DNA of 64,000 nucleotides from Thioclava sp. GXIMD2076. GTDB taxonomy: Bacteria > Pseudomonadota > Alphaproteobacteria > Rhodobacterales > Rhodobacteraceae. Under the pieces are notes generated by a model that searched no databases, had not been told where the DNA came from, and saw only the letters and a program-made list of their open reading frames with translations. The DNA is taken from contig NZ_CP149933.1 of the NCBI RefSeq assembly GCF_037949795.1, forward strand, positions 124,001 through 188,000, in the 5' to 3' direction. Position numbers and translations under genes: made by a program. How positions within the stretch are numbered: position 1 is the stretch's first letter; every line of letters begins with the position of its first letter. This document shows, piece by piece, positions 26,929 through 48,289 of this stretch.

Positions 26929-27049
26929 GAGGAGTATCCCTGAAGAGCTGATTTGAGAGAAGCCTAGCGGGATTTGGAAAGTTAAATAGTCTGTTTCTTA
27001 TTGGCTGTAAGTCGTTGTATAAGCGTCATGGAATGGAGGTGTTTGATCT

Positions 27050-31513: not shown

Positions 31514-32848
31514 TCAGATCCAGTGATGCACCGGATGCGCGCGGCCCTGATCGAAGCGCTCGAAGCGGAAGCCTGTTATGTCGATCTCGGGGGGCTCGCC
31601 CGCGATCATCTGCGCCATCAGATAGCCCGCCCCCGGACCGATGGCGAAACCATGCCCCGAGAAACCGCTGGCGACAAAGAGACCCGCCTGCTGCGGCACG
31701 GCGCCGATCACCGGCACCATATCGGGGGTGGCGTCGATCACACCGCCCCAGCTTTCGGCCACGCCCACGCCCTTGAGCACCGGATAGGCCGCCTCGAACG
31801 CCGCCATTCCGCCCGCGACCAGCTTGGGATCGGCGGGGGGATCATAGATGCGGGCATGGTCTTCCTCGAAGGGTGAGGGGCCGGAATTCTTCCATGACCG
31901 GAAGGCGAAAGGCCCGTTCAGCGTCGATTTCGTCAGCGCGAAGGTCAGCTGGTCGCGGCGCAGGAAGAAGAGGTTGCGGAAGGCCCATGCATCGCGCACC
32001 CCCATCGGGGACAGCTCGATCCGGCCACGTCCGCGCAGCCCCACCGTATAGCCGCCATCATCGCGGCGGCGATAGGAAAAGAGCGGGCTGCCCACCCCGC
32101 CTGCATAGAGCTCGGCCCCTGCATTGGTGCGGAAGGCGGTGCCGAAGACACCCGACTGGCGGAACCGGATGCCCTGAGGGCGCAGGAGCATCGACGACCA
32201 TGCCCCGCCCGCAACCAGCACCTTCGCGCAGCGGATCGTGCCGCGCTCGGTGACGACCTCCGAGATCCGGCCCGCAGAGGTTTCCCAGCCGCGCACCGCG
32301 CAATTCTGCACGATGATGGCGCCTTTGGCCTGCGCGCCACGCGCCATCGCGGGCACGGCGATCTGTGGCTCGGCCCAGCCATCCTCGGGAGAGTGGATGG
32401 CATGATGCCAGTCCTCGGCCGTGTCGGGCAGGGCGGCTTTGACCTCATCGGCCTCCAGAATACCGCCGGGGAGGTTGTGATGGGCCATGCTGCGCGCCCA
32501 TGCCTCCCAGCGCTGGCGTTCCCCTGGGTCTTTCGACACAACCATCATGCCGGTCTTGCGGAAGCCCGCATCCTGTCCGATCCGCTGGTCCATCGAGCGC
32601 CAGAGCCGCAGCGACAGGATCGCCAGCTCCTGTTCGACCGGCGAGCGCAGTTGCTCGCGCACCCAGCCCCAGTTGCGGCCCGACTGTTCGCCCGCCACGC
32701 GGCCCTTCTCGAGCACCACGACCTTCAGGCCGCGCTCTGCCAGAAACAGCGCGCTTGTGACGCCGACAATCCCTGCACCGACAACCACCACATCGGCGCT
32801 TTCGGGAAGCACGTCAGAGGTGGTGACGCGATCTACCTTGGGAGACAT
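31514..32848 (-). CDS. FAD-binding oxidoreductase, DAO/OrdL-like
   Basis: A 444-residue flavoprotein. The dinucleotide motif is VVVVGAGIVGVTSALFLAERG near residue 20, then GEQSGRNWGWVREQ. The C-terminal FVASGFSGHGFAIGPGAGYLMA is typical of the OrdL/PuuB-like oxidases that act on secondary or glutamylated amines. It is 32 bases downstream of a polyamine-type ABC permease with a GGAAGGAA ribosome site, so it probably oxidises the imported amine. The precise substrate is unknown. Confidence 0.82.
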   Translation of the reverse strand: MSPKVDRVTTSDVLPESADVVVVGAGIVGVTSALFLAERGLKVVVLEKGRVAGEQSGRNWGWVREQLRSPVEQELAILSLRLWRSMDQRIGQDAGFRKTGMMVVSKDPGERQRWEAWARSMAHHNLPGGILEADEVKAALPDTAEDWHHAIHSPEDGWAEPQIAVPAMARGAQAKGAIIVQNCAVRGWETSAGRISEVVTERGTIRCAKVLVAGGAWSSMLLRPQGIRFRQSGVFGTAFRTNAGAELYAGGVGSPLFSYRRRDDGGYTVGLRGRGRIELSPMGVRDAWAFRNLFFLRRDQLTFALTKSTLNGPFAFRSWKNSGPSPFEEDHARIYDPPADPKLVAGGMAAFEAAYPVLKGVGVAESWGGVIDATPDMVPVIGAVPQQAGLFVASGFSGHGFAIGPGAGYLMAQMIAGEPPEIDITGFRFERFDQGRAHPVHHWI

Positions 32849-32880: not shown

Positions 32881-33747
32881 TCAGGCCGTTTCCAGCTGGT
32901 CACTGGCCTGTGCGTCCTTTTGCAACTTCCACTGGCGCGTCTGCTCGCGGCGTTTGACCCATTCGAACATCAGCGCCGCGATGATCGTCAGAACGACGAT
33001 GACGGTTGCCAGCGCCGAGATGGTAGGCGAGGAGCCCATCCGCACGCGCGAGGCCAGCACGGTGGTCAGGGTCTTGTCGGCGAGGATGGCGAAAGTGGTC
33101 GCGTTATAGTTCTCGAACGAGGTGAGGAACCCCAGCATCATCGAGGACAGGATCGCAGGCCGCAGATAGGGGAGGAGCACATCCCGGAAGACCTGCGGAT
33201 AGCTGGCCCCCAGATCGAGCGCCGCTTCCTCCTGCGACATATCGAACCGCTGGAGCCGCGCGAGAATGATCAGCATGCAATAGGAAGACACAAAGCTCGA
33301 TTGCGCGAGAATGGTCAGAACTGTCCCGTTGTAAAGCAGGCTGCGCAGCCCCAGAAGCCCCGTAAAATCGCGCCAGAAGACGACCGTTGCGATCCCCAGC
33401 ACGATCCCCGGAATAAGCACCGGTGCCACAACGAGGAAATAGTAATAGGCGCGCGATGTGCCGAAGAGCTGGGTCATTACCAGCGCGCCGGCCAGCCCCA
33501 TTGCCACCGACAGGATCGAGACGCTGATCCCGATGATCACCGAGGTGCGCAGGCCCTCGAGCATCTCCTGATCGTGGAGTAGCTCCCTGAACCAGTCCAG
33601 TGTGACGCCTTCTATCGGCCAGACCTGCGGGTAGTTCGGGGTGTTGAAGGCCGAGACAGCCATCACCAGAAGCGGCCCGAGCAGGAAGATGAAGAACACC
33701 ACAAGATAGATGCCGACCAGAGCGGAATTGATTTTCTGCTGGTTCAT
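32881..33747 (-). CDS. Polyamine-type ABC transporter permease (PotC-like)
   Basis: A 288-residue inner-membrane permease of the PotC type with about six helices. The EAA loop EEAALDLGASYPQVFRDVLLPYLRP is near residue 185. Its start overlaps the preceding permease by 4 bases. It forms the channel of the spermidine/putrescine-type importer encoded by this operon. Confidence 0.87.
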   Translation of the reverse strand: MNQQKINSALVGIYLVVFFIFLLGPLLVMAVSAFNTPNYPQVWPIEGVTLDWFRELLHDQEMLEGLRTSVIIGISVSILSVAMGLAGALVMTQLFGTSRAYYYFLVVAPVLIPGIVLGIATVVFWRDFTGLLGLRSLLYNGTVLTILAQSSFVSSYCMLIILARLQRFDMSQEEAALDLGASYPQVFRDVLLPYLRPAILSSMMLGFLTSFENYNATTFAILADKTLTTVLASRVRMGSSPTISALATVIVVLTIIAALMFEWVKRREQTRQWKLQKDAQASDQLETA

Positions 33748-34751
33748 TTGGTGATCTCCCCGAGTTTGAGACCGGAAATCTTCAACACACCGAAGACGAA
33801 GGTCATACAGGCGATCAGCAGGACGATGGCGTAGGCGGCCCCCTGCGGCCAGTCGAAGAGCTGGTAGAAACGGTCATAGACGATGGGCGTGAACCACAGC
33901 GAATTCGGCCCGCCAAGCACCATGGGTGTAGCAACAGCACCCGCCGTCAGCATGAAGGTCAGCGTCATCCCCGAGGCGATGCCCGGTTTGGCATGGGGCA
34001 TGACCACGAAGAGGTGGATATGCCACCACGGCGCGCCAAGGTCGCGCGCGGCCTCGATCTGGTTGTGATCCTGCGCCTCGATCGCGTTATAGAGCGGGAA
34101 GATCATGATCAGCAGATGCGAATAGCACAGCGCCACATAGAGTGCGATATTCTGGCCGAGGAAGTCGATCGGCCCGCCCGTCAGTCCCAGCCCCTGCAGC
34201 AGCGTATTGAGAAATCCGTTCTCGGCCATCACAATGCGGAAGGCAAATGCGCGCAGGATGTCATTGACCCAGTAAGGGATGATCAGAAGCAGCAACAAAA
34301 GGCGCAGCACCTGCATCCGTGCCGCCTGCGCCATATAATAGGCCAGCGGATAGCTGATGGCGAAGGTCAGCAGCGTCAGCAGGATCGAGATCCCGATGGT
34401 CATGAAGAAGCTGCGCAGATGCAGCCAGTTGAGGCTGTCCATGCTGGTCTTCGAGCCGAAGAGGAACATCCGGTAATTGTCGAGTGTGTAGACATCTTCC
34501 GGCCCGCCCACCTTGGAGGGCGGCAGCTTGTGGTGGAAGGACAGATCCACCATGAACACCATCGGCATCAGGAATGTCATCAGCATCCAGAAGCCCACGC
34601 CGACAATCAGATAGGTTCCGACCATGCCGCCATTGCGCTTGAAAAAGCCGATATGACCGGTTGTTGCGCGCAGGCGATCATAGCGGATCAGGAAGAAAAA
34701 CAGCGCCAGCATCAGCGCCGTTACAATAAAGGTGATCGGCAGGTTGTTCAC
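33744..34751 (-). CDS. Polyamine-type ABC transporter permease (PotB-like)
   Basis: A 335-residue permease with an extra N-terminal hydrophobic helix before the usual six. The EAA loop reads QIEAARDLGAPWWHIHLFVVMPHAKP. It overlaps both neighbours by 4 bases (ATGA-type), so ATPase, PotB-like and PotC-like subunits are translated as a block. Confidence 0.87.
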   Translation of the reverse strand: MNNLPITFIVTALMLALFFFLIRYDRLRATTGHIGFFKRNGGMVGTYLIVGVGFWMLMTFLMPMVFMVDLSFHHKLPPSKVGGPEDVYTLDNYRMFLFGSKTSMDSLNWLHLRSFFMTIGISILLTLLTFAISYPLAYYMAQAARMQVLRLLLLLLIIPYWVNDILRAFAFRIVMAENGFLNTLLQGLGLTGGPIDFLGQNIALYVALCYSHLLIMIFPLYNAIEAQDHNQIEAARDLGAPWWHIHLFVVMPHAKPGIASGMTLTFMLTAGAVATPMVLGGPNSLWFTPIVYDRFYQLFDWPQGAAYAIVLLIACMTFVFGVLKISGLKLGEITK

Positions 34752-35863
34752 GCGGCCACCCCTTCATGCTTGAGAACCACGGCATCGAGCGGATCGAATT
34801 GCAACGTTAATTCGGTGCCGATCTCGGGCAGGGTGCCTGCATTCGAGGTCATGATGGTGGCATCGCATTTGCGGGGCAGACCCGCATCGAGTTCCAGATG
34901 GGTCATCGAGCCCTCGAAGGACAGATCGCGCACCCTGGCGCCGAAACCGCAATTGGGCCGCGCGGCCCCTGCGGGCACCAGTCTCAGCTGTTCGGGGCGG
35001 ACGAAAAGCGAGGCCTGATCGCCCACATCCAGCGCAATCGGGGTCACGCCATCCATGCCCAGACCGATGCGGCCCGTCAGCTGGCCCACCTGCGTATCGA
35101 CATGCACGAGCCCATCGGAGACCGCGGCCACGCGGCCGGGGATCATATTGCTCTCGCCCACGAAGGAAGCAACAAAAGCGCTGCGCGGATTGGCATAGAT
35201 CTCGCGGCCCGAGCCGACCTGCTCGATCCGGCCTGCATTCATCACCGCGATCCGGTCGGACATGTTTAGCGCCTCGCCCTGATCATGGGTGATATAGATG
35301 AAGGTGATGCCCACGCGCTGCTGGATCTCGCGCAGCTCGCGGCGCATATGCTGGCGCAGCTTCAGGTCCAGCGCCGAAAGCGGCTCGTCCAGCAGCAGCA
35401 CCTTCGGCTCGACCGCAAGCGCACGCGCGATCGCCACACGCTGTTTCTGCCCGCCCGAAAGCGCGCTGACCTTCTTATGCGCGTGGGGCGAAAGGGCGAC
35501 CTGATCCAGAAGCTTCAGCGCCCGCGCCTCGCGTTCGGATCTGCCCATACCGCGCACCCGCAGGCCATAGGCCACATTCTCGGCCACGGTCATCATCGGG
35601 AAGAGCGCGAGGTTCTGGAAGATCAGCGCGGTCGGGCGTTTGTTGGGGCCGATCCCGGCCATATCCTTGCCGCCGATCCGCACCTGACCGGAGGTCGGCT
35701 GCACGAAACCGGAGATCGTGCGCAACAGGGTGGTCTTGCCGCAGCCCGACGGACCAAGGAAGGAAAAGAACTCGCCATCATGGATCTGGAGGTCGGTTTT
35801 ATGGACGGCGGTGAAGCTGCCGAAGGTGATCTCCACCTGCTCGAGTTCGATTGCACTCGTCAT
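34748..35863 (-). CDS. Polyamine-type ABC transporter ATP-binding protein (PotA-like)
   Basis: A 371-residue ATPase with Walker A GPSGCGKTTLLRTISGF near residue 38, signature [16 protein letters not shown], Walker B VLLLDEPLSALDLKL and a C-terminal TOBE domain. The start ATG 35863 matches the family start MTSAIELEQVEITFG; the frame runs further upstream without a better start. It lies 83 bases after the frameshifted binding-protein gene. Confidence 0.87.
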   Translation of the reverse strand: MTSAIELEQVEITFGSFTAVHKTDLQIHDGEFFSFLGPSGCGKTTLLRTISGFVQPTSGQVRIGGKDMAGIGPNKRPTALIFQNLALFPMMTVAENVAYGLRVRGMGRSEREARALKLLDQVALSPHAHKKVSALSGGQKQRVAIARALAVEPKVLLLDEPLSALDLKLRQHMRRELREIQQRVGITFIYITHDQGEALNMSDRIAVMNAGRIEQVGSGREIYANPRSAFVASFVGESNMIPGRVAAVSDGLVHVDTQVGQLTGRIGLGMDGVTPIALDVGDQASLFVRPEQLRLVPAGAARPNCGFGARVRDLSFEGSMTHLELDAGLPRKCDATIMTSNAGTLPEIGTELTLQFDPLDAVVLKHEGVAA

Positions 35864-35946: not shown

Positions 35947-37114
35947 TCAGGAGACCTTGAAGCGTTCCGCATAGTCGTTGCGGATCGGGTTGAACCATTC
36001 GGGGCTGGCCGGATACCACCAGAGCTTGTCGAGTGCGTCCTCGGGATAGGCGGCCTGGAACAGCTTCTTGTCCTCGGCGGTCATATATTCATCCGCGCCC
36101 GCCACCGAGGGGCTGTAGCCGCCATCAGAGGCGATCTTGCCTGCAGTCTCGGGTTTCAGGATATAGTCGAAGAAGGCATAGACCTCGTCGATATTGCGGG
36201 CCGCAGCCGACATCGCGAAGCCGTCCATCCATGTCAGTGCGCCTTCCTGTGGCGCCATGAATACCACCGGCTCGCCATCCTTGGCCATGGATTTCACCGG
36301 ACCATCCCATGTCTGGCCAATCACGCAGCCATTTTGCGCAAATCCCGAACGAATGCTGTCCGCGCTGTCCCAGAACTGCTTGAAATTCCCCTTGCGCTCG
36401 ACCGCATAGGCGAAGATCTGGTCGTAGATCTTGCGCATCGTCTCCTGATCTTTGTAGCAATCGAGCATGCGGTTCGAGGGCACCTGGCCTGTCGCATCAA
36501 GCCACAGGCCCAGACCGAGAAGCGCCGAGGTCGGGCGAACCTGCGCCTTGCCCGCATAAGTCGGGCTCCCACAGCAGACCATAGCTCGCTTGCGCGTAAT
36601 CGATGCCGGTCGAAGTGTTGAAGGACAGCCCCTCGGTGCCCCAGACATGGGGGATGTGATAAAGCCCATCGTCCCACGTCCACAGACCGGTCGAGGCTTT
36701 CAGGATCGACGGCTGATAGGCCGACAGATCTATGCGATCTTCATCAAAGGCTTGAAGCGCTTCGATATACTTGAACTCCGAAGCACGGTTGAACGACGGC
36801 ATCACAAGATCGAACCCTTCGCCGAAGGTCGATTGCATCTTGTTGATGGCTTCCTCGTTCGAGGAGAAGGGGGTCTTGTTCACCTTGATGCCGGTGGCTT
36901 CCGTGAAGCCCGACATCACCTCCTCGGGCAGCTCGTCGGACCAGCACAGAAGGTTCAGCTCGCCACTGGCGGCAAAGGCACGTTTGACGTAAAGCGGCGC
37001 GGCTATCGTGGCGGCACCTGCGGCAAGCGCCGTGCTCAGGAGGGTCCGGCGGTTGAAACTGCGCGCGGCGGCGGCGGTGAGGGAGGTGCTGGTGGGAGTG
37101 TGCGTCTTGGTCAT
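35947..37114 (-). pseudogene. Polyamine-type periplasmic binding protein, frameshifted
   Basis: A PotD-like binding protein split by a frameshift. The 5' part (from ATG 37114, behind GGAG) has a Tat-like signal region (SFNRRTLLSTALAAGAATIA), then LNLLCWSDELPEEVMSGF and runs in frame to DYAQASYGLLWEPD. There the frame shifts, and the protein resumes one base over as YAGKAQVRPTSALLGLGL through to the normal C-terminus (FNPIRNDYAERFKVS). The break is at the AA of 36558-36559; removing one base restores a continuous protein of about 388 residues. Nothing else is damaged, so it is a recent mutation or a sequencing error. Confidence 0.85.
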
Positions 37115-37173
37115 CAATATCTCCATGTTGGAACAGCAAGCACCGGAGCCGTTGAGGGCGATTATTTTGCGGT

Positions 37174-37203
37174 ATTATAATATTCTATCTGGTGAAATGT
37201 CTT
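37174..37203 (-). promoter_or_regulatory. Promoter of the polyamine-type ABC operon
   Basis: On the minus strand: -35 AAGACA (37198-37203), 18-base spacer, -10 TATAAT (37174-37179), 60 bases before the binding-protein start. The first palindrome of the 35-bp IclR-type element (37183-37197) fills the spacer, so binding there would block RNA polymerase. Confidence 0.65.
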
Positions 37204-37217
37204 GCTGCTTAATAGAA
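37183..37217. promoter_or_regulatory. 35-bp tandem palindrome element 1 (probable IclR operator)
   Basis: Two 15-bp units with centres 20 bp apart. Unit 1 is TTCTA-N5-TGAAA (37183-37197) and unit 2 is TGCTG-N5-TAGAA (37203-37217). The outer arms TTCTA and TAGAA are perfect inverted copies. The same 35-bp geometry recurs at 41684-41718 and 41818-41852. It lies between the ABC operon and the iclR gene. Confidence 0.75.
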
Positions 37218-37294
37218 TGATGAAAAATGGAAGTGAGCACGTCAAGTTTGCCGGAAGCGAAATCGGCAATTTCTCTCATGTCGGAGGATCGGAA

Positions 37295-38053
37295 GTGTCA
37301 GGGGATCAAAAAAGTGGCTATCAGGCACCCGCCAAGCTGAAGACGAAAGGCGTGGAGGCGGTGGACAAGGCGCTGCGTATCCTCAGCCTCTTCGACTCGA
37401 CGACAAAGCGCCTGTCTCTGGGCGATATCAGCGCTCGCACGGGGCTGGTGAAAAGCTCGGTGCTGCGGCTTCTGGTGTCGCTGCAATCGGCGGGCTATCT
37501 GCGTATCAGCGCCGACAAGACCTATGTCATCGGTCCCGAGGCCTTCCGCGTCGGGCGGATCTACCAGTCGACCTTCAGCCTCGAGGGCGAGATCCGTCCG
37601 GTCCTGCAAAAGCTCGTGGCAGTGACAGGAGAGAGCGCCTCCTTCTTCCGGCGCGAGGGGCAGAAGCGGGTCTGTCTGTTCCGCGAGGACTGCAATGAAC
37701 TGCTGCGCGAACATGTCGCGGAGGGCGATGCGGTGGATATCGGCAAGGGCGCTCCCAGCCATGTTTTCATCGACTATGACATGATGCGCGGCGACGAGCC
37801 CGCGCCTCTGGATATCCTCAACGAGCTGCCTGCCGTTTCGGTGGGCGAGCGCGGGCCGGGGATCGCGGGGCTCTCGGTGCCGATCTTCGGGGCGGACGGG
37901 GCGATGCTCGGAGCGATGACGGTCTCGGGGCCCGCCGCGCGGCTGACCGAGGCCAAGATCGACGAGATCCAGCCGATCCTCATGGCGGGGGCCGCCACGG
38001 CCTGCGCCTCGCTCGGCGCGCGGTTCTATGAACTCTGGGAAGGGCGGCTCTAA
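37295..38053 (+). CDS. IclR-family transcriptional regulator
   Basis: A 252-residue regulator. The N-terminal winged helix-turn-helix (VDKALRILSLFDSTTKRLSLGDI, TGLVKSSVLRLLVSLQSAGYL) is followed by the IclR effector domain (FRREGQKRVCLFRED, GPGIAGLSVPIFGADG). I choose GTG 37295, which sits 7 bases behind GGAGG; an upstream ATG at 37202 is open but has no ribosome site and would add about 30 unconserved residues. It diverges from the ABC operon and its last bases overlap the convergent hydroxyacid dehydrogenase. It is the obvious candidate to bind the three 35-bp elements. Confidence 0.85.
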   Translation: MSGDQKSGYQAPAKLKTKGVEAVDKALRILSLFDSTTKRLSLGDISARTGLVKSSVLRLLVSLQSAGYLRISADKTYVIGPEAFRVGRIYQSTFSLEGEIRPVLQKLVAVTGESASFFRREGQKRVCLFREDCNELLREHVAEGDAVDIGKGAPSHVFIDYDMMRGDEPAPLDILNELPAVSVGERGPGIAGLSVPIFGADGAMLGAMTVSGPAARLTEAKIDEIQPILMAGAATACASLGARFYELWEGRL

Positions 38054-39000
38054 TAGCCGCGCACCAGATCCACCACATCCCTCATCGGGTTTCCTGACAG
38101 ATAGGCCGCCAGATTGAAGGCCATCTTGCGCTCGAACCGCGCACGCTCGGACCCGCCCCTGAAGGATTGATGCGGGGTCAGCAGCACATTGGGATGGCCG
38201 TAATAGGGGTGGCCATCCGTCAGGGGCTCGGGCGTGGTCACATCCAGCGTGGCACGCGCAACCGTGCCATCCCCGAGCGCGGCCAGAAGGGCTGCGTCAT
38301 CGACGAGCCCGCCGCGTGCGATATTGATGATATGACAGCCTCTCTTGGCCCCTGCCAGAAAGGCTTCGTTGACCATGCCTTCCGTCTCGGGCGTCAGTGG
38401 CGCGGCCAGCACGATATGATCGGAGGCTTGCGCCACCTCTTGTGGCGAGGCACAGGCGATAACCCCTTCCTCGGGGCTGTCCCACGGGCCACGGCGGCAG
38501 GCGCGCACCTCCATGCCGAAGGCCAGCGCGCGTCGCGCGATCTCCGAGCCGATAGCGCCGTAGCCGATGATACCGACACTGCCGCCCTCGAGTGTGCCAA
38601 GATTGCGCGGCCCCCAGTCGGATGGGCCATGCACCACCGCACCGGCCAGATCCTTCACCATCAGGAGCATCGCCGCCATTACATATTCGGCGATCTGGGG
38701 TGCGGTCAGCCCGCGCCCGCAGCTGACGATCCGGTCCTTTTTCAACCAGTCGGGATAGACCTCGACCCCCGCCGAGAAGGTCTGCACCCATTTCAGTGCG
38801 GGCAGGTCCAGGTGGGCGGGGGCCTGTTTCCAGCCTGGGATATTGCGCGTGACGAGGATTTCCGCCTCGGTGGGCACATCGAAGGGGCGGTCGGCATCCA
38901 GACAATCGATCACCTGTGGTGCTTGCGGCAGAGCGGCCAGAAAGCGGCCGAATTCGGCATCGATCTGGTTGGCGATAACGGGGTGGCGATCGGCTGTCAT
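38050..39000 (-). CDS. D-2-hydroxyacid dehydrogenase
   Basis: A 316-residue NAD(P)-dependent dehydrogenase. It shows VGIIGYGAIGSEIARRALAFGMEV near residue 145 (Rossmann motif), the HIINIARGGLVDDAALLAAL segment and the catalytic histidine in LTPHQSFRG. It probably reduces or oxidises a 2-oxo/2-hydroxy acid produced in this catabolic cluster. It is the last gene of the abrB-like, aldehyde dehydrogenase, hydroxyacid dehydrogenase series (18-base gap) and overlaps the iclR end by 4 bases. Confidence 0.85.
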   Translation of the reverse strand: MTADRHPVIANQIDAEFGRFLAALPQAPQVIDCLDADRPFDVPTEAEILVTRNIPGWKQAPAHLDLPALKWVQTFSAGVEVYPDWLKKDRIVSCGRGLTAPQIAEYVMAAMLLMVKDLAGAVVHGPSDWGPRNLGTLEGGSVGIIGYGAIGSEIARRALAFGMEVRACRRGPWDSPEEGVIACASPQEVAQASDHIVLAAPLTPETEGMVNEAFLAGAKRGCHIINIARGGLVDDAALLAALGDGTVARATLDVTTPEPLTDGHPYYGHPNVLLTPHQSFRGGSERARFERKMAFNLAAYLSGNPMRDVVDLVRGY

Positions 39001-39018
39001 GGATTTTCTTTCAAGGGT

Positions 39019-40503
39019 TCAGAGTGGGAAAGGGTAGGGCGCCTCATCGGCGAGATTGATCCAAACGCTCTTGGTCTGGAGATAGTCATGGATCATCTCG
39101 ACACCGCCTTCGCGACCGATGCCGGAGGCTTTGAAGCCGCCAAAGGGCGAGATATGCGAGCCGCCTTTATAGCTGTTGACCCAGATGGTGCCAGCCTCGA
39201 TCCGGGCGGCGATCTTGTGGACGCGTGCGATATCGCGGGTCCAGAGGCCGGCGCCCAGACCGAAGGCCGTGCCATTGGCGATCTCGACCGCCTGCGCCTC
39301 GGTCTCGAAGGGGATCACCGACAGGACCGGGCCGAAGACCTCTTCCTGCGCGATGCGCGAGGCGGGATCGACATCGGCGAAAATGGTGGGGGCGACAAAC
39401 AGCGCCGCACCGCCCTTCGGGTCGGCCACCGCCCCGCCCCCGCACAGAAGGCGGGCGCCATCTTCCTTTGCCCAAGAGATACAGGTCATGATGCGGTCAA
39501 ATTGCGCCCTGTTGGCGACAGGGCCGATATCGGTGTCAGGCGACATCGGATCGCCGAGGCGGATCTTGTCCGCCAACTCCGTGATGCGTGTCAGGACGCG
39601 GTCATAGACCGACACATGCACCAGTGCCCGCGAGCCCGCCACACAGCTTTGCCCGCCCGAGCCGAAGATGCCCTGCACCACGCCGCGGGCGGCCTGCTCG
39701 AGATCGGCATCGGCGAAGACGATGTTGGGGGATTTCCCGCCCAGTTCCAGCGTTGCGGGGCGCAGGTTATGGGCGGCGGCCATATAGGCCTGACGCCCGC
39801 CGCCAATGCCGCCGGTAAAGGCCACCTTGGCGATCCCGGGATGGCGAGTCAGCGCGGCACCGGCCTCGGCCCCGAGACCCGTCACGATATTCAGCACGCC
39901 CGCCGGAAGCCCGGCCTCCTCGGTCACGATCTGGGCAAAGCGCACGGCAGAGGCAGAGGTATATTCCGACGGTTTCACCACTGCCACATTGCCCGCCGCC
40001 AGCGCCGGTGCCAGCTTCCAGCTGAGTAGCATCAGCGGCGAATTCCACGGCGTGATCATCGCGATGACCCCCAGCGGCTCGTGGCGGGTATAGTTCATCA
40101 TATCGGGGTTCTCGGTGGGCAGGACCGCGCCGTTGATCTTGTCGCAGAGCCCCGCATAGAAGCGATACCATTCGGGGATGCGCCTGAGCTGCGCCAGCAT
40201 CTCCTTGTAGGTCTTGCCGTTGTCGCGGGTCTCGATGCGCGCCAGTTCCTCGGCATGGGCGGTGATCACATCGGCCATACGGTTCATGAGTGCCGCGCGC
40301 TTCGTGGCGGTCAGCCCGCCCCATGCGGGGTCTTTGAACGCTCGGTGCGCGGCGGCCACGGCCAGTTCCACATCCGCCGCATCCGAGCGCGGAATGCGAC
40401 CCCAAGGCGCGGCTTCATAGGGATTGTCGCATTCGAGCCACGCGCCAGATTGCGCGGGGCAGGATGCGCCATCGATAAAGTTCTCAACGGTCAGCAGGGT
40501 CAT
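39019..40503 (-). CDS. NAD(P)-dependent aldehyde dehydrogenase
   Basis: A 494-residue enzyme with ITPWNSPLMLLSWKLAPALAAG in the coenzyme domain, the glutamate segment LELGGKSPNIVFADAD and the catalytic cysteine in GGQSCVAGSR, with the C-terminal INSYKGGSHISPFGGFKASGIG-like stretch. It would oxidise the aminoaldehyde formed by the nearby aminotransferase or amine oxidases. ATG 40503 has AAGGA at good spacing. It is the middle gene of a three-gene operon. Confidence 0.88.
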   Translation of the reverse strand: MTLLTVENFIDGASCPAQSGAWLECDNPYEAAPWGRIPRSDAADVELAVAAAHRAFKDPAWGGLTATKRAALMNRMADVITAHAEELARIETRDNGKTYKEMLAQLRRIPEWYRFYAGLCDKINGAVLPTENPDMMNYTRHEPLGVIAMITPWNSPLMLLSWKLAPALAAGNVAVVKPSEYTSASAVRFAQIVTEEAGLPAGVLNIVTGLGAEAGAALTRHPGIAKVAFTGGIGGGRQAYMAAAHNLRPATLELGGKSPNIVFADADLEQAARGVVQGIFGSGGQSCVAGSRALVHVSVYDRVLTRITELADKIRLGDPMSPDTDIGPVANRAQFDRIMTCISWAKEDGARLLCGGGAVADPKGGAALFVAPTIFADVDPASRIAQEEVFGPVLSVIPFETEAQAVEIANGTAFGLGAGLWTRDIARVHKIAARIEAGTIWVNSYKGGSHISPFGGFKASGIGREGGVEMIHDYLQTKSVWINLADEAPYPFPL

Positions 40504-40574
40504 GTCATCGTCCTTCATGTGCCCTATGGGGCAGGAATGTGAGGCTCCGTGCAAGAGCGGAATGTCAAACGGGG

Positions 40575-41642
40575 TCAGGGCTTAGCGCCACAACGTGCCA
40601 GAAGGCGGCTCAGTATGTGCCAGAACGGTTCGAGCATGAGATTGGCCAGCAGGATGCGGGTGAGGTGGAAGCTCAGCACCAGTGGCACCGAGACCCCCAT
40701 GGCGCGCGCGGCCACCGTCATTTCCGGCATGCCGCCTGGGGACATGCCGAAGAGCAGCGCGGCCTCGTCCATGGTGCTTATCCGCGCCATCGCCAGCGCG
40801 GCCAGGACCAGAAGCACGGTAAGACAGAGGGTGGAGACCGCCGAGACCACCACCAGCCGCAAGGAGCGGCGCAGAAAATCGGGGACCATCCGCGCGCCCA
40901 GCGAGACACCGAGAATGATCTGGCAGACGGTCACGATCCAATGCGGCAGGGTCACCGGATCGAGATCCGTCTGCTGCAGCGCGATGGCGAAGAGGCAGGG
41001 CGCGATCATCCACGGGTTGGGCAGGAAGCTGCGGCGCGCCAGATGCGCCACGCCCACCCCGCCTGCCAGCAGGAGGGCGACCCAGAGGAGATCGGCCGGT
41101 GTGTAGGCCTGTGTTCCGCCCACCGCGGCCGCAACCGCGTCGCGGGTGTGATCGGGCAGGAAGACATGCAGCAGCACCGGATAGCTGAGCACGACCACGC
41201 CGAGCCGCACGGTCTGTGCGAGCACCAAATGCGCCTCCGATGCGCCCGCCCGCTGTGCCTGCACGGCCATCAGCACGACGCCCCCCGGTATGGTGCAGAA
41301 AAACGCCGTCGAAGCATCAAGCTCCGCGCCCTTTGTGAACAGGCCCGTGAACAGCAGGCCGGAGAGCAGCGTGAAGAGGCCACAGGCGAGGATCAGCGGC
41401 AGATAGGCAATCAGTTGGGCCATGATCTCGGGAGTGAAGCTTTGACCCAGCGAGAGCCCCAGCACCACCAGCCCGTAGGCGCGGATACGGTCGATGCGGA
41501 TCGTCATCCCCGCCAGCGTGAATCCCGTGCTGACAAGCAAGGCGCCGATCAGCCAGCCGAGCGGGATATGGGCGGCGGTCGCCAATGCGCCGCCGCCACC
41601 TGCAGCCGTCAGAACCAGAAGGATCTTCCAGAATGTCACCAC
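40575..41642 (-). CDS. AbrB-family membrane protein
   Basis: A 355-residue protein with about ten transmembrane segments, made of two related halves as in the AbrB (ammonia monooxygenase-like, PF05145) family. It has GWLIGALLVS near residue 30 and conserved glycine-proline turns (CTIPGGVVLMA in half one, GMSPGGMPEMT in half two). It starts at GTG 41642 behind AGGAG. The biochemical role of the family is unsettled; a transporter for a product of this pathway is an inference from context. It leads the operon downstream of the 41.7 kb promoter. Confidence 0.78.
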   Translation of the reverse strand: MVTFWKILLVLTAAGGGGALATAAHIPLGWLIGALLVSTGFTLAGMTIRIDRIRAYGLVVLGLSLGQSFTPEIMAQLIAYLPLILACGLFTLLSGLLFTGLFTKGAELDASTAFFCTIPGGVVLMAVQAQRAGASEAHLVLAQTVRLGVVVLSYPVLLHVFLPDHTRDAVAAAVGGTQAYTPADLLWVALLLAGGVGVAHLARRSFLPNPWMIAPCLFAIALQQTDLDPVTLPHWIVTVCQIILGVSLGARMVPDFLRRSLRLVVVSAVSTLCLTVLLVLAALAMARISTMDEAALLFGMSPGGMPEMTVAARAMGVSVPLVLSFHLTRILLANLMLEPFWHILSRLLARCGAKP

Positions 41643-41683
41643 GAAGCGTCTCCTGCGCCGCGCGGGCGTCGTTACTGGAAATA

Positions 41684-41718
41684 TTCTACTAGATAGAACT
41701 TAGTTATGTTAAATAGAA
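41684..41718. promoter_or_regulatory. 35-bp tandem palindrome element 2 (probable IclR operator)
   Basis: Unit 1 is a perfect TTCTA-N5-TAGAA (41684-41698). Unit 2 is TTATG-N5-TAGAA (41704-41718). Centres are 20 bp apart, and the outer arms TTCTA/TAGAA are identical to those of the other two elements. Unit 2 covers the -10 of the abrB-like promoter and unit 1 lies near its start point. Confidence 0.75.
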
Positions 41719-41740
41719 CAATATTCCCTTGGGCTGACAA
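41712..41740 (-). promoter_or_regulatory. Promoter of the abrB-like/aldehyde dehydrogenase operon
   Basis: Minus strand: -35 TTGTCA (41735-41740), 17-base spacer, -10 TCTATT (41712-41717), about 70 bases before GTG 41642. The -10 lies inside unit 2 of the 35-bp element. The same TGTTCTATTTA context surrounds the -10 of the opposite promoter. Confidence 0.6.
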
Positions 41741-41795
41741 GAGCCTAACTTCGAGGCAGTGACGAATATCCTGCACCGGAAAGGCGCCATGCTGC

Positions 41796-41824
41796 TTGAC
41801 GAACGAAAAGGGCGATGTTCTATT
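41796..41824 (+). promoter_or_regulatory. Promoter of the class III aminotransferase gene
   Basis: -35 TTGACG (41796-41801), 17-base spacer, -10 TCTATT (41819-41824), about 100 bases before ATG 41927. The -10 is inside unit 1 of the third 35-bp element. Confidence 0.6.
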
Positions 41825-41852
41825 TATGGAAATAGTGTTCTGCCCAATAGAA
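41818..41852. promoter_or_regulatory. 35-bp tandem palindrome element 3 (probable IclR operator)
   Basis: Unit 1 is TTCTA-N5-GGAAA (41818-41832) and unit 2 is TTCTG-N5-TAGAA (41838-41852), again with centres 20 bp apart and perfect outer arms. It overlaps the -10 and start region of the aminotransferase promoter. An inner dyad CTATTT-N4-AAATAG (41820-41835) is also present. Confidence 0.75.
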
Positions 41853-41926: not shown

Positions 41927-43297
41927 ATGAATAAACCCCTGCTGAATTCCGTGGCCGCGATGGATGCGGCCCATCAGATCCACCCGCATACCAACCTGCG
42001 TAAACATCTGGAAACCGGCCCGAACGAGTTGCTGGTGCGTGGCGAGGGCATTCAGGTTTTTGATGAGACGGGCAAGGGCTATATCGAAGGGGCCGCGGCG
42101 CTCTGGTGTTCGTCGCTGGGCTTTGGCAACGCGCGTCTGGCCGAGGTGGCCAAGCAGGCGATCACCGATCTGGGCTATTACCACAACTTCCGCGGCTCAG
42201 GCACGCCGCAGGCGGCCCAGCTTTGCTCGAAACTGGCCGATATCGCGCCCGACGGCATGGACAAGATCCTGCTGCAATCCTCGGGCACGGAGGCCAATGA
42301 CACCGCACTCAAGCTCGTGTGGTATTACTGGGATGCGATGGGCGCCCCGCAGCGCCGCAAGATCATCTCGCGTCACGAGGGCTATCACGGCACTGGCACG
42401 CTGACCTCCTGCCTGACCGGCAAGGTGAAGTTCCATGAGGGCTACGGGCTGCCCTTCAGCGAGTTCCACTATGTCACCCAACCCTATTACTACCGCAAGG
42501 CCGAAGAGGGCGAGAGCGAGCAGGAGTTTTCCACCCGCCTTGCCAACGAGATCGAGGAGCTGATCCTGCGCGAGGGCCCCGAGACGGTAGCGGCCTTCTG
42601 GGCGGAGCCGGTCATGGGCTCGGGCGGCGCCATCACCCCGCCCGCCGGATATTTCGAGAAGGTTCAGGCGGTTCTCGACAAATATGGAGTGCTTTTCGTG
42701 GCCGATGAGGTCATCTGCGGCTTTGCCCGCACAGGCGAGATGTGGGGGAGCCAGACCTACGGGATCAAGCCTGACCTGATCTGCTGCGCCAAGGCGCTTT
42801 CGGCGGCGGTAATCCCGATCTCGGCGGTGATCGTGGGCGAGCGCGTGTTTGAGGGGATGATGGCCCAGTCCGACAAGCGTGGCAGCTTCACCCATGGCTA
42901 TACCTATAGCGGACATCCGGTGGCCTGCGCCGTGGCCCATGAGGTGCTGACGATCTACGAGGAAATGGATCTGGTGGCCCATGTGAAATCGCTCGAGCCC
43001 GCCTTCCTTGGCGGATTCAAGGCGCTGGAAGACCATCCGCTGGTCGGTAATATCGATGGTGTCGGCCTGATCGGTGCGCTCGAGGTGGTGGCCGACAAGA
43101 AGACCCGTGCGATACATGATCCGGCGCTGGCTGTGATGCCGATGCTCGACCGGCTGACCCGCAAACACGGGCTGATCACCCGCCTGATCGGCAACCGGAT
43201 CGCACTCGCCCCGCCGCAGATCATCACCGAAGCCGAGGTGGGCGAGATGTTTACCCGTCTCAAGGCCGCGCTCGACGAGGCGCATGCCGCGCTCTGA
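41927..43297 (+). CDS. Class III PLP aminotransferase (amine:pyruvate type)
   Basis: A 456-residue omega-aminotransferase. It shows IQVFDETGKGYIEGAAALWC, LLQSSGTEANDTALKL, RHEGYHGTGTLTSCLTG, the PLP aspartate in FVADEVICGFARTG, and the PLP lysine in CCAKALSAAVIPISAV. This group includes putrescine:pyruvate and beta-alanine-type transaminases. It would produce an aldehyde for the dehydrogenase encoded by the divergent operon. ATG 41927 follows GAAAGG by 8 bases. It ends at a strong hairpin. Confidence 0.88.
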   Translation: MNKPLLNSVAAMDAAHQIHPHTNLRKHLETGPNELLVRGEGIQVFDETGKGYIEGAAALWCSSLGFGNARLAEVAKQAITDLGYYHNFRGSGTPQAAQLCSKLADIAPDGMDKILLQSSGTEANDTALKLVWYYWDAMGAPQRRKIISRHEGYHGTGTLTSCLTGKVKFHEGYGLPFSEFHYVTQPYYYRKAEEGESEQEFSTRLANEIEELILREGPETVAAFWAEPVMGSGGAITPPAGYFEKVQAVLDKYGVLFVADEVICGFARTGEMWGSQTYGIKPDLICCAKALSAAVIPISAVIVGERVFEGMMAQSDKRGSFTHGYTYSGHPVACAVAHEVLTIYEEMDLVAHVKSLEPAFLGGFKALEDHPLVGNIDGVGLIGALEVVADKKTRAIHDPALAVMPMLDRLTRKHGLITRLIGNRIALAPPQIITEAEVGEMFTRLKAALDEAHAAL

Positions 43298-43366: not shown

Positions 43367-44146
43367 TCAGGCGGCCATCCAGCCGCCATCGACCAGAAGG
43401 TTATGCCCGTTGATGAATTGCGTCTCGGGCGCCGCGAGGAAGGCCACGGCCTCGGCCACATCGCGCGGCTGGCCCAGACGGGGCGAGGGCGTGCGGGCGC
43501 GCGAATAGGCCATCGCCTCCTCGCTGACCGCAGGGCCGCTCTTGCCGGTCAGGATCTTGCCCGGCGAGACGGCGTTGCACACGATGCCGTCGGTGGCATG
43601 ATCGGCCGCGATCTGGCGGGTCATCTGCAGCACGGCCGCTTTCGAGACGCCATAGGCGAAGGAGCGCGGCGAGGCGATCATCCCGTGCTGCGAGCCGATA
43701 TTGATGATCCGTCCACGCTCGCCCTCGGGGCCACGCGGATCCTGCGCCAGCATCTGGCACAGGCTGGCCTGCAGCGTGACATAGACACCCGTCAGATTGA
43801 CCGAGGTGACCCGCTCCCACTCGGCCAGATCGGTATCGGGCAGCGCCCGTCCCCCCGGCACCATGGCCGAGGTCACCACGATATCGAGCCGTCCGTGACG
43901 CGCGGCAATCCCGCGGATCAGATCCTGTGTGGCCAGGGGATCGCGCACATCGAGGCGTGCGAACTCATTGGCCGGTGACAGGGCGCGCAGGGGCGCGCGC
44001 ACGGGATCGCCGCCCTCGACCACATGCTCGGTCACATCGGCGGCGATGGTGGTGGCGCCTTCGGAGGCCAGACGCAGCGCGATGGCGCGACCGATCCCCG
44101 ATGAGGCACCGGTCACAAGGGCGGTCAGCCCGTTCAGGCGGCTCAC
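43367..44146 (-). CDS. Short-chain dehydrogenase/reductase
   Basis: A 259-residue SDR oxidoreductase with the cofactor motif TGASSGIG at residues 13-20, NIGSQHG carrying the catalytic serine, the YxxxK pair in [10 protein letters not shown], and the C-terminal [12 protein letters not shown]. It starts at GTG overlapping the ATPase stop (GTGA). It is the last gene of the AllA/PuuE-like operon and probably oxidises or reduces an intermediate there. The substrate is unknown. Confidence 0.85.
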
Positions 44147-44898
44147 CGGATGATCCGTTCGAGGAAGGCCTTCGCGCGGGGATGGCGCGGGGCGGTGAAG
44201 AAATCCTCGGGCGGACGGCGTTCGAGAATGGCGCCCTGATCCATGAAGACAATCTCGTCGGCGACCTTGCGGGCAAAGCCCATCTCGTGGGTGACGCAGA
44301 TCATGGTCATCCCGCCCGCGGCCAGATCGGTGATCACATCGAGCACCTCGCCGATCATCTCGGGGTCGAGCGCCGAAGTCGGCTCATCGAACAGCATCGC
44401 CTCGGGCTCCATGCACAGGGCGCGGGCGATGGCCACACGCTGCTGCTGGCCGCCCGAAAGCTGGCTCGGAACCTTATACGCGTGATCGGCGATGCGGACG
44501 CGTTCGAGATAATACATCGCGCGGTCCTCGGCCTCGGCTTTGGGCACCTTGCCGATCCGGCGCGGGGCGACGGTGAGATTGTCGAGCACACTCAGATGCG
44601 GGAAGAGGTTGAAATGCTGGAACACCATGCCCACGCGGCGGCGCACCTTGTCGACGCCGCGCCCCGAAGATGTCAGCTCGTTATCGCCGACGCGGATGAG
44701 CCCGTCCTGAAATTTCTCGAGCCCGTTGATGCAGCGGATCAGTGTCGATTTACCGGAGCCCGAGGGGCCACAGATAACGACCTTGCGGCCTTTCGGGACG
44801 TCGAGGGTGATCTCTTTGAGGGCCTGGAACTTGTCATAGAACTTCGAGAGGCCCTGAACCTTGATGAGCGGGTCTGTCGCGGTATCAGAAGCGGGCAT
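44143..44898 (-). CDS. Polar amino acid ABC transporter ATP-binding protein
   Basis: A 251-residue ATPase of the GlnQ/AapP type with Walker [19 protein letters not shown] near residue 43, signature [15 protein letters not shown], Walker [16 protein letters not shown] and switch [16 protein letters not shown] 44898 has GGAG and overlaps the epimerase end by 14 bases. It energises the two permeases upstream in the operon. Confidence 0.9.
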
Positions 44899-45913
44899 AT
44901 ACGGTCTCCGGAGTGTCGGTGTCGGGGAAGTCCGCGCGCCAACGGAGGTAATCCTCGGCGGCGGCGGCAAGGGAGCGGCTCGCGGCGGGGCGCTGGAGGG
45001 CGCGCAGGCTGCGGGCGGTGTCGAGGGGCGGGCGGCCTTGGGCCATGCGCGCGGTCACGCTGGGCGCATGCGCATCGATCCGCACGGGCGGCAGGCCGGT
45101 GAGCGCCGCCCAGTCGGCAGGGCTCGAGAGCTGGCCCGCGCCGATATTGAAGACGGTCCCGTCCGTTCCGGTTTCGGGCCAGAGGCACAGGAGGCCGGCA
45201 ATGATCTCGCCCGCATCGCGCGAATAGAGCCAGTCGGCGCGCATCTCGTGGGGCAGCGTGGCGGGGAGGCCGTCCTGTGCCAGCGCCTCGATTTGGGCAT
45301 GGGGCGAGAGATTGGGGCGCGTGGCCCCCGCCCGTTCCCAAGGCCCGAAGACCGGACCGAGCCGCAGGATCTGCAGCGAGAGGCCGAATTCGGGCGCCAG
45401 AAGGCGGGCCAGATCCTCGGCGGCACCGCGGGTCAGCCCGTAAAGGCTGTCGGGGCAGAGCGGGCCGTCTTCCGTGAGGGTGCTCTGTTCGGGCCAGGGG
45501 CCTTTGGTGCCGTAAAGCGCGACGGAGGAGGTCATTGCGAAGCGGGGGATCCCGAGATCGGCGGCCGCCGTCATCGCGGTGGCGATACCCGCGACATTGA
45601 GCGCCACGATCCGGTCCGCGCTCTGGCGGATCTGGGCCGCATCGGGGGTGAGGGCCGCGAGATGGAGCACCAGATCGGGCTGTGCCTCGGCCAACGCCGT
45701 CTGCACGGAGGCCGGGTCGTGCAGATCGCAGGGATGGAAGCTGGCACCCGCCAGCGCGGGATGGGCCAGCCATCCGGCGGGGGGCGGCGCCAGATCCAGC
45801 AGGGCCACGCGGCAGCCCATGGCGCGTGCCGCCTCGGCACAGGCGAGGCCGATGAAGCCTGCGCCGCCGATGATGGCAATGGCCGGTGTCCGGGGCGTTA
45901 TCGGCATAGACAT
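44885..45913 (-). CDS. NAD-dependent epimerase/dehydratase family protein
   Basis: A 342-residue extended SDR. The cofactor motif [20 protein letters not shown] is at residues 13-33, TSSVALYG carries the serine, and the YxxxK position reads [10 protein letters not shown], where arginine stands in place of the usual catalytic lysine. [12 protein letters not shown] follows. Members act as sugar epimerases or as dehydrogenases of sugar acids. The Lys-to-Arg change is unusual and may mean altered chemistry. It lies inside the ABC operon between permease and ATPase. Confidence 0.78.
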
Positions 45914-45916
45914 CGC

Positions 45917-46591
45917 TCAGCCCCGACGGATGATCGCGCGGCGTTCGAGCACCGACACCCAGCGCGAGAAGGGCCATAGGAGCACGAAGAAGATGATCGC
46001 GGTCGCGGTGAGCGGCGTCGGGTTATAGACCTGTTGCTGGGCCACATTGGCCGAGCGCAGGAGTTCCGGCAGCGCCACGATCGAGGCGATCGAGGTGCCT
46101 TTGGCCAGCTCGAGCGCGTTGGAGGCGCAAGGGGCAGCCACCCGGCGCAGGGCCTGCGGCAACAGGATCCAGATCATCATGCGGATCGGACCGAAACCGA
46201 GCGCCTGCGCGGCCTCGGTCTGGCCCTTGTCGAGTGAGACAAGCCCCGCGCGGAAGATCTCGCCGAAATAGCCAGTATTGTTGAGCACGAGTGCCAGCAC
46301 CACGGCAGAGAAGGCCGAGATCTTGATGCCGACCGAGGGCAGGCTGTAATAGATGACGATCAGCAGGACCAGCACGGGGAACGAGCGCAGAAGGTCGATC
46401 ACGATCACCAGAATACGGCGGGCGGCAGGCGGGGCGAAGGAATAGAGCACCCCCACCAGAAGACCCGATAGCGCGGCAAGCGGCAGGCAGACAAGCACCA
46501 GCTGCATGGTCACCACAAGGCCCTGGGCCAGAAGCGGCCATGTCTGTTTCAGGGAGTCGATATTGGCGAAATTCGCGAGGAAGAGTTCCAT
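45917..46591 (-). CDS. Polar amino acid ABC transporter permease 2
   Basis: A 224-residue HisM/GlnP-type permease with about five helices and the EAA-like loop EAAQALGFGPIRMMIWILLPQALRR. The ribosome site AAGGAG is strong, and it begins one base after the sister permease stops. It forms a heterodimeric channel with that permease. Confidence 0.88.
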   Translation of the reverse strand: MELFLANFANIDSLKQTWPLLAQGLVVTMQLVLVCLPLAALSGLLVGVLYSFAPPAARRILVIVIDLLRSFPVLVLLIVIYYSLPSVGIKISAFSAVVLALVLNNTGYFGEIFRAGLVSLDKGQTEAAQALGFGPIRMMIWILLPQALRRVAAPCASNALELAKGTSIASIVALPELLRSANVAQQQVYNPTPLTATAIIFFVLLWPFSRWVSVLERRAIIRRG

Positions 46592-46592
46592 A

Positions 46593-47270
46593 TCAGGCTC
46601 CTTTGTGCGAGCTGGCGCGGCGTTCGAGCCAGCGGGAACAGGCGACGAGCGGTATATAGAACGCCAGATAGAAGGCGGCGGCCAGCATCAGCGGGGAGGG
46701 GTTCGCGGTGATCGACATGATGCTCTCGGCCGAGCCCAGCGTGTCATTGAGCGAGACCGCCGTGCCGAGCGCCGAGCCTTTGGTGACCGCGATCACGCGG
46801 TTCGTCACAAGCGGCGTGGCGAGCCGCACCGATTGCGGCAGGATGATCAGCCAGAGCGTGCGGAAGGTGCCGAAGCCCAAGGCATGGGCGGCCTCCCACT
46901 GACCTTTGGGCAGCGCCATGATGGAGGCGGTGAAGATCTCGGCGCAAAAGGCCGAGAGCACGAAGCCGAGCGCAAAGGCCGTAGCCACGAAGGGCGAGAG
47001 CGCGATCCCCGCATAGGGCAGCGCGAAGAAGAGGAAGATCAGGATCACGAGCTGCGGCAGGGTGCGGAAGATCTCGATCCACGCCGTAACCAGCGCGCTC
47101 AGCAGCCGCGATCCGGTCAGACGTAACAGGGCCAGCGCCATGCCGAGCACAAGCCCGATGGCGATGATGGCGAAAGAAACCTCGATCGTGATGAGGAAGC
47201 CCTGGAAGACCGATGGCAGCGCCGCGAGCATCACCTCGGTATTGAAGAAATTTTGCGCGAGTTTATCCAT
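46593..47270 (-). CDS. Polar amino acid ABC transporter permease 1
   Basis: A 225-residue HisQ/GlnP-type permease. It has EIFRTLPQLVILIFLFFALP in the first half and the docking loop WEAAHALGFGTFRTLWLIILPQSVR. It follows the binding-protein gene after a 74-base gap that holds a stable hairpin, and precedes the second permease by one base. Confidence 0.88.
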   Translation of the reverse strand: MDKLAQNFFNTEVMLAALPSVFQGFLITIEVSFAIIAIGLVLGMALALLRLTGSRLLSALVTAWIEIFRTLPQLVILIFLFFALPYAGIALSPFVATAFALGFVLSAFCAEIFTASIMALPKGQWEAAHALGFGTFRTLWLIILPQSVRLATPLVTNRVIAVTKGSALGTAVSLNDTLGSAESIMSITANPSPLMLAAAFYLAFYIPLVACSRWLERRASSHKGA

Positions 47271-47304
47271 TGGTTTTCAGTCGTCGCCAGTCTTGTGGGG
47301 GGAG

Positions 47305-47329
47305 GGCCAGAGCCTGACGGGCTCTGGCC
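47305..47329 (-). promoter_or_regulatory. Intercistronic hairpin after the binding-protein gene
   Basis: A perfect 10-bp stem GGCCAGAGCC / GGCTCTGGCC with a 5-base loop and no T tract lies between the binding protein and the first permease. Such hairpins usually protect the upstream message from 3' decay, so that binding protein outnumbers membrane subunits. The role is inferred. Confidence 0.6.
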
Positions 47330-47344
47330 ATAAGGTCTGCGCGA

Positions 47345-48193: not shown

Positions 48194-48289
48194 GATTTCC
48201 CTGTTGGGTTGGATTGGAGAGAAGGTTCTTGCTTTTGGGCCCTGCGGGGAGCGGGGCCAGAGACGGAAGCAGGGCTTCCGGCTATCGGG

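Follow-up and report, generated by a model that had tools for sequence, protein, structure and literature searches.

A predicted IclR-type regulon with four-box operators in an amine-related gene cluster of Thioclava sp. GXIMD2076

Three elements of one layout

The window, a 64,000-nucleotide stretch of Thioclava sp. GXIMD2076 (NZ_CP149933.1, positions 124,001 to 188,000), lies within a 693,503-base contig of a genome, G000, of 4,145,446 bases and 99.63% completeness. It carries a gene for an IclR-type regulator, three 35-bp elements designated E1, E2 and E3, and the genes of a predicted regulon (Table 1). The ATP-binding cassette (ABC) operon of this regulon comprises a substrate-binding protein, an ATPase, two permeases and a flavin adenine dinucleotide (FAD) oxidoreductase; the second operon comprises an AbrB-type protein, an aldehyde dehydrogenase and a D-2-hydroxyacid dehydrogenase, and the third unit is an aminotransferase gene. 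The regulator is a member of the IclR family, with both its helix-turn-helix and its C-terminal domain scoring over the curated cut-offs.

All three elements stand where an earlier note on this DNA had placed them and share, without a mismatch, the layout TTCTA-N25-TAGAA described there. Their inner structure of two 15-bp units with centres 20 bp apart is likewise as claimed. Each element holds four boxes that alternate in direction at 10-bp steps; the outer boxes are exact in E1-E3, and the inner boxes match TTCTA at 2-5 of 5 bases.

With up to one mismatch, TTCTA-N25-TAGAA occurs three times in the window against 0.12 expected, a count reached in none of 100 shuffles. The whole of G000 contains three exact copies, which are E1-E3, and 29 more places with one mismatch. 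A control, the reversed pattern, occurs more often in G000 (152 vs 32 places with up to one mismatch; 8 vs 3 exact), so the copy number by itself is not high. The unusual feature is the clustering, as all three exact copies lie inside 4.7 kb.

A search of G000 for the four-box pattern with up to three mismatches added three places, one of them new. When the 30 outside places from both pattern searches were scored with a matrix of the window elements, the top scores were 23.8, 19.2 and 18.8 bits, against 38.4, 43.0 and 40.5 bits for E1-E3. Many copies in unrelated places were not seen: no comparable extra copy was found in G000, and the genome-wide four-box search with up to three mismatches yielded no further convincing operator. 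The best outsider, C1:1516586 (23.8 bits), was rejected as an operator; it lies beyond the end of one predicted open reading frame and short of the 3' end of another that runs towards the first. A weak extra site may exist at C2:87816 (15.0 bits), a few bases 5' of a predicted open reading frame start.

Conservation of the elements and their company with iclR

At the orthologous locus of Pseudooceanicola endophyticus (L016), whose IclR is 87% identical, elements occur at all three corresponding places; the pattern is retained at an orthologous locus that keeps the same iclR. Genome G273 (IclR 63% identical) has an exact element in the gap that separates iclR from the substrate-binding gene. 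Plasmid p2 of Thioclava sp. 'Guangxiensis' (CP155823.1), among the best 20 of 139 plasmid records, encodes an IclR 99.6% identical to that of the window within a matching gene order. The cluster is also kept in Neorhizobium sp. NCHU2750 (L036; IclR 58.6% identical), with the aminotransferase first and abrB, the aldehyde dehydrogenase and the hydroxyacid dehydrogenase following on the same strand; one strong element there (43.8 bits) lies 5' of the aminotransferase and one weak element (19.6 bits) 5' of iclR. The Neorhizobium comparison suggests that the number of elements follows the number of promoters.

Orthologues were sought in samples of 295 genomes from the family, 16 from the genus, 390 from the order, 385 from the class and 398 from the phylum. 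Besides the own genome, only G273 encodes an IclR of more than 60% identity in these samples. A scan of genome contigs gave one locus, and the plasmid search gave one record above 60% among the best 20 of 139. A homologous-protein search with IclR returned 83 relatives, gene context not included.

With the unit spacing allowed to vary from 14 to 32, no other value did better than 20 in any of 15 regions: 20 stood alone at the top in 13 and shared that place in the other 2, and the value at 20 lay above all 200 shuffles in 13 of the 15. Across 26 elements, boxes 1-4 match TTCTA at a mean of 4.23, 3.81, 3.88 and 4.08 of 5 bases. No conclusion was drawn from the slightly better preservation of the outer boxes, because the search began from them.

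The exact framework was also met in three of 15 other genomes of the genus, four copies in all, with scores of -3.6, 4.7, 12.3 and 28.0 bits; the iclR of the window was found in none of the 15 at E 1e-45. The 28.0-bit copy falls within a predicted coding sequence that has no iclR next to it, so chance can give 28 bits. This copy, the shortness of the boxes and the AT-rich character of the promoters are what could be said for a mere chance likeness of AT-rich promoters, an explanation that we find scarcely credible in the face of the shuffle tests, the three copies in 4.7 kb, the orthologous positions and the 20-bp spacing.

A matrix built from E1-E3 alone was run on up to 450 bases 5' of iclR at 31 loci, with a resampling floor of 0.001. 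All 13 loci with at least 40% IclR identity have a match 5' of iclR (p <= 0.005), 10 of them at 32 bits or more; these loci are not all independent, L035 being near-identical to the window and three being close Azospirillum relatives. Eight later loci came from the phylum-wide sample, and five of them score 28.8-37.1 bits with the window-only matrix. Elements of 39.0 and 38.9 bits lie 5' of iclR in Variovorax and Burkholderia stagnalis, at loci where seven cluster queries (six window proteins plus part of the substrate-binding protein) all failed to find a relative at E 1e-15. The loci of Roseibium, Azospirillum and Agrobacterium larrymoorei have only an aldehyde dehydrogenase relative (33-53% identical) in common with the window, beside other modules. 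On a tree of 32 IclR rows (31 of them different), the rows with a score of 14 or more, 18 in number, cluster together, with 5 changes against 10.8 in shuffles and 0 of 500 shuffles as low; they form no single clade on this tree.

The Palleronia locus (L037) contains window-related aminotransferase, abrB, aldehyde dehydrogenase and hydroxyacid dehydrogenase genes. Two weak elements, at L037:8784 and L037:7896 (18.8 and 17.6 bits), flank its iclR, and one of them precedes a substrate-binding gene of another type. An aldehyde dehydrogenase 50-69% identical to that of the window lies near iclR at L036, L037, L039, L040 and L046, in clusters that otherwise differ.

The link to IclR proposed in the earlier note is thus well supported: the layout travels with iclR into other gene neighbourhoods, the 20-bp spacing accompanies it, and no comparable extra copy was found in the genome. 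E1-E3 are very probably control sites of the neighbouring IclR-type regulator. Genes for other regulators do lie within about 15 kb of the elements, namely a PuuR-like cupin protein (27050-27625), a LysR-type protein (27630-28562) and GntR- and LysR-type proteins near 49-51 kb, and one of these could bind the elements instead. Against this stands the recurrence of the element with iclR at other loci; moreover, L036, L038 and L040, each with an element 5' of iclR, have no annotated LysR-, GntR- or PuuR-type gene, in an annotation that is incomplete and, for L038, includes one unclassified helix-turn-helix protein. We therefore consider binding by another nearby regulator very improbable.

Promoters and predicted mode of action

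Each element had been described as overlapping the -10 or the spacer of a promoter. Consensus promoters are indeed found inside or across the elements, but the hexamers kept in Pseudooceanicola are -35s of the TTGAC or TTGTC type outside them. The internal candidates, TTAACA-18-TAGAAT inside E2 and TGGAAA-18-AATAAT across E3, are probably close to the promoters meant in the earlier note. Both were set aside: their second hexamers are lost in the Pseudooceanicola alignment whereas the outside TTGTCA and TTGACG are kept, and the outside hexamers were therefore preferred. In the promoters proposed here, the last base of the -10 at E1 (CATCAT) is also the first base of the element, and the -10s at E2 and E3 (TCTATT) lie within the first half-site. 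The Neorhizobium aminotransferase gene shows the same promoter-operator arrangement as at E3 (L036:15817).

For a wider comparison, a -35-like hexamer was defined as at least 5 of 6 matches to TTGACA, with the spacer counted to the TCTA of the outer box. Such a hexamer accompanies 15 elements in a first set of 18, at a spacer of 17 or 18 in nine, 23 in five and 16 in one, and is absent from three (the iclR side of L037, L042 and L043); these promoter counts include related elements, which are not independent. By chance, with any spacer of 15-24 on either side, it is met at 490 of 9108 positions (5%).

A protein bound to an element would cover the -10 or the transcription start, which favours repression without proving it. 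We consider it likely that each element is an operator of the adjacent IclR, at which two dimers would sit on one face of the DNA and the three promoters would be repressed until an inducer releases the protein. The four half-sites, which form two 15-bp palindromes of the TTCTA-N5-TAGAA type at a centre-to-centre distance of 20 bp, would accommodate two IclR dimers, as a dimer of dimers, or one tetramer. The operator would begin in or just past the proposed -10 and cover the expected transcription start. In the absence of inducer, IclR would block the promoters of the importer and FAD oxidoreductase genes, the abrB operon and the aminotransferase, and a cationic amine, an omega-amino acid or a product of one would release it. 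The recurring aldehyde dehydrogenase hints at an aldehyde or its acid as the shared effector. Since E1 also lies 5' of iclR, the regulator gene is probably self-controlled.

IclR may, however, bind the elements without being a simple repressor, as an activator or in a dual role. Both kinds of regulator occur in the family (PMC8222616), and a dual role has been proposed for BhcR (PMC11323563). The window operators either overlap the proposed -10 or come immediately after it, which is the usual position for a repressor, in contrast to the potential palindrome that PMC11323563 places 5' of the bhcA -35. On balance, activation or dual regulation appears unlikely.

Several observations weigh against repression by IclR at elements of this kind, or against its generality. 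Repression itself is deduced from position alone. Among the loci with less than 40% IclR identity only 5 of 18 pass, and the other three of the eight later loci include one at 11.4 bits and two with practically no match. With the window-only matrix the iclR-side elements of Neorhizobium (15.2 bits) and Palleronia (17.9 bits) are weak, and at both L036 (iclR side) and L037 the box count at a spacing of 20 does not exceed the best shuffles. L023, L028 and L041 have only three good boxes, in alternating direction, with the fourth lost. Single high scores can be chance, as the 28.0-bit copy inside a gene of another genome demonstrates, and an aldehyde dehydrogenase relative recurs, as iclR does, in most of these loci. 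Finally, of 10 further elements, mostly from more distant relatives, only two (L024 and L055; spacers 15-24, either side) have a -35-like hexamer. The promoter cassette was therefore not upheld as a general rule, and the claim is limited to the nearer relatives. The reading of the earlier note is right in essence, and the elements are real and conserved.

The predicted regulon and related IclR systems

That IclR dimer sites come in tandem, about 20 nt from each other, is a published trait of the family, so this part of the earlier idea was already in print. In 94 of 181 IclR orthologous groups, Suvorova and Gelfand (2021, PMC8222616) describe palindromes in tandem at distances of 18-22 nt. They interpret these as sites for a tetramer whose two dimers face the same side of the DNA, and they list three-box sites in 32 groups. 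The palindrome centres in the window, 20 bp apart, fall inside that range. The unit fits the 17-bp GTT-11-AAC frame in length, and the control predicted here, of the regulator's own gene and of adjacent operons, has its counterpart in the regulons described there, which comprise the own gene and one or two adjacent operons. Compared with the group 1 consensus, GTTYCRYW3RYGRAAC, the length and the outer TT...AA agree, whereas box position 4 is mostly T here and C in TTYCR.

BlcR of the Agrobacterium fabrum plasmid At binds DNA as a tetramer. Its blcR-blcA region (L052:23180-23234) contains two palindromes whose centres, counted by eye, are 20 bp apart. Their boxes have another sequence (7.2 bits), and the window IclR has no tblastn hit in L052 at E 1e-8. 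BhcR of Paracoccus denitrificans gives the highest NCBIfam model for the window IclR, at 84.4 bits far under the NF045644 cut-off of 350. A tetrameric DNA-binding form of BhcR has been suggested, and PMC11323563 gives its site only as a potential palindrome 5' of the bhcA -35. PcaR, PcaU and PobR belong to the same protein family, but the window IclR reaches 83.8 bits against a TIGR02431 cut-off of 284.75. The PcaU three-box site (PMC8222616) is comparable to the three-box forms, although its GTTCGAT-type boxes (Table 1 of PMC8222616) are unlike those of the window. Model scores and tblastn indicate that the window regulator is not BhcR, PcaR/PcaU or BlcR. The three-box forms at L023, L028 and L041 stand 5' of more distant iclR genes. 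In open-licence PubMed Central we found no paper treating both IclR and Thioclava, no description of this regulon by title and no paper on the BlcR operator by title.

Table 1 Elements, proposed promoters and genes of the predicted regulon in the window
Feature	Position	Strand	Description	Remarks
Element E1	37183..37217	.	Predicted operator separating the ABC-importer operon (-) from iclR (+)	Exact TTCTA-N25-TAGAA; kept at L016:9879 (Pseudooceanicola) and L018:2301 (G273)
Element E2	41684..41718	.	Predicted operator 5' of the abrB - aldehyde dehydrogenase - hydroxyacid dehydrogenase operon (-)	Exact TTCTA-N25-TAGAA; kept at L016:13449, 1 mismatch
Element E3	41818..41852	.	Predicted operator 5' of the aminotransferase gene (+)	Exact TTCTA-N25-TAGAA; kept at L016:13595, 2 mismatches, 32.5 bits
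Proposed ABC-operon promoter	37217..37245	-	TTGACG-N17-CATCAT, last base common to E1	-35 hexamer kept in L016 and G273
Proposed abrB-operon promoter	41712..41740 (by eye)	-	TTGTCA-N17-TCTATT, -10 within E2 outer half-site	Kept in L016
Proposed aminotransferase promoter	41796..41824 (by eye)	+	TTGACG-N17-TCTATT, -10 within E3 outer half-site	Kept in L016
iclR regulator gene	37295..38053	+	GTG start, 252 aa	HTH_IclR 51.4 bits (cut-off 22); IclR_C 32.6 bits (cut-off 24)
PotD/PotF-like substrate-binding protein gene	35947..37126	-	Two open reading frames, one-base frameshift in assembly	Single coding sequence in CP155823.1
Importer ATPase	34748..35863	-		
Importer permease, PotB/PotH-like	33744..34751	-		
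Importer permease, PotI/PotC-like	32881..33747	-		
FAD oxidoreductase	31514..32848	-		Closest solved relative L-amino acid deaminase
D-2-hydroxyacid dehydrogenase family protein	38050..39000	-		No relative in Pseudooceanicola locus
Aldehyde dehydrogenase	39019..40518	-		
AbrB-type membrane protein (PF05145)	40575..41642	-	Putative permease	
Class III aminotransferase	41927..43297	+		PRK06105 580.7 bits (cut-off 517); PDB relatives

The substrate-binding gene is a single reading frame in the near-identical CP155823.1 and in L016; its frameshift in the window is either a fault of the assembly or real, in which case the importer would not work. The amine-catabolic circuit proposed in the earlier note calls for correction at two of its members. 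Among 11 loci, several of which are short or belong to a different cluster type, a relative of the second FAD oxidoreductase (30096-31337) was found at E 1e-15 in the near-identical plasmid L035 and nowhere else. The hydroxyacid dehydrogenase, absent from the Pseudooceanicola locus, has relatives only in L035, L036 and L037. The second FAD gene, a possible further member of the ABC operon, lies 176 bp past the first, and no promoter or terminator match was found in this gap.

The closest solved relatives of the intact substrate-binding protein of CP155823.1 are putrescine and spermidine binders, and those of the aminotransferase are class III transaminases, the top entries being what we take to be the Pseudomonas jessenii enzyme. 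That enzyme is reported to act on 6-aminohexanoate (PMC6061476). A cationic amine or omega-amino acid is a fair guess for the substrate of the predicted pathway.

Two further catabolic gene sets lie in the window. At 25636-27625 a GABA (gamma-aminobutyrate) transaminase (737 bits, cut-off 724) stands beside the PuuR-like regulator (127 bits, cut-off 211); a succinate-semialdehyde dehydrogenase adjoins this pair in CP155823.1, pointing to a neighbouring GABA/putrescine cluster. At 43367-49698 a short-chain dehydrogenase, an amino-acid ABC importer, a PuuE-type deacetylase (344.5 bits, cut-off 424.6) and a ureidoglycolate lyase-like gene form a second catabolic block, which has no E1-type operators. 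A similar importer and deacetylase set adjoins iclR in Variovorax (L042).

A broader picture can be offered only tentatively. In it, a branch of IclR proteins would use a fixed cassette, with a TTGAC-type -35, a spacer of 17-18 bp and a -10 in the first half-site of a four-box operator spaced at 20 bp, together with a variant shifted by 6 bp. Near relatives would reuse this cassette before different catabolic modules; distant ones, beta-proteobacteria included, would keep the operator, in some cases with three boxes, and lose the promoter. The window itself would then encode an undescribed amine pathway with a polyamine-type importer, an L-amino acid deaminase-like oxidoreductase, an aminotransferase and two dehydrogenases.

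The principle of tandem sites was known before; no description of this regulon was found in open-licence PubMed Central, and some detail of the operator-promoter fit in nearer relatives is new. A previously unstudied regulator gains a concrete predicted operator and a three-operon regulon, and nine genes besides iclR are joined in one pathway hypothesis. From the operator type, sites can be predicted in alpha- and beta-proteobacterial relatives, and the natural range of this operator from four to three boxes offers a way to test the published idea of two IclR dimerisation modes.

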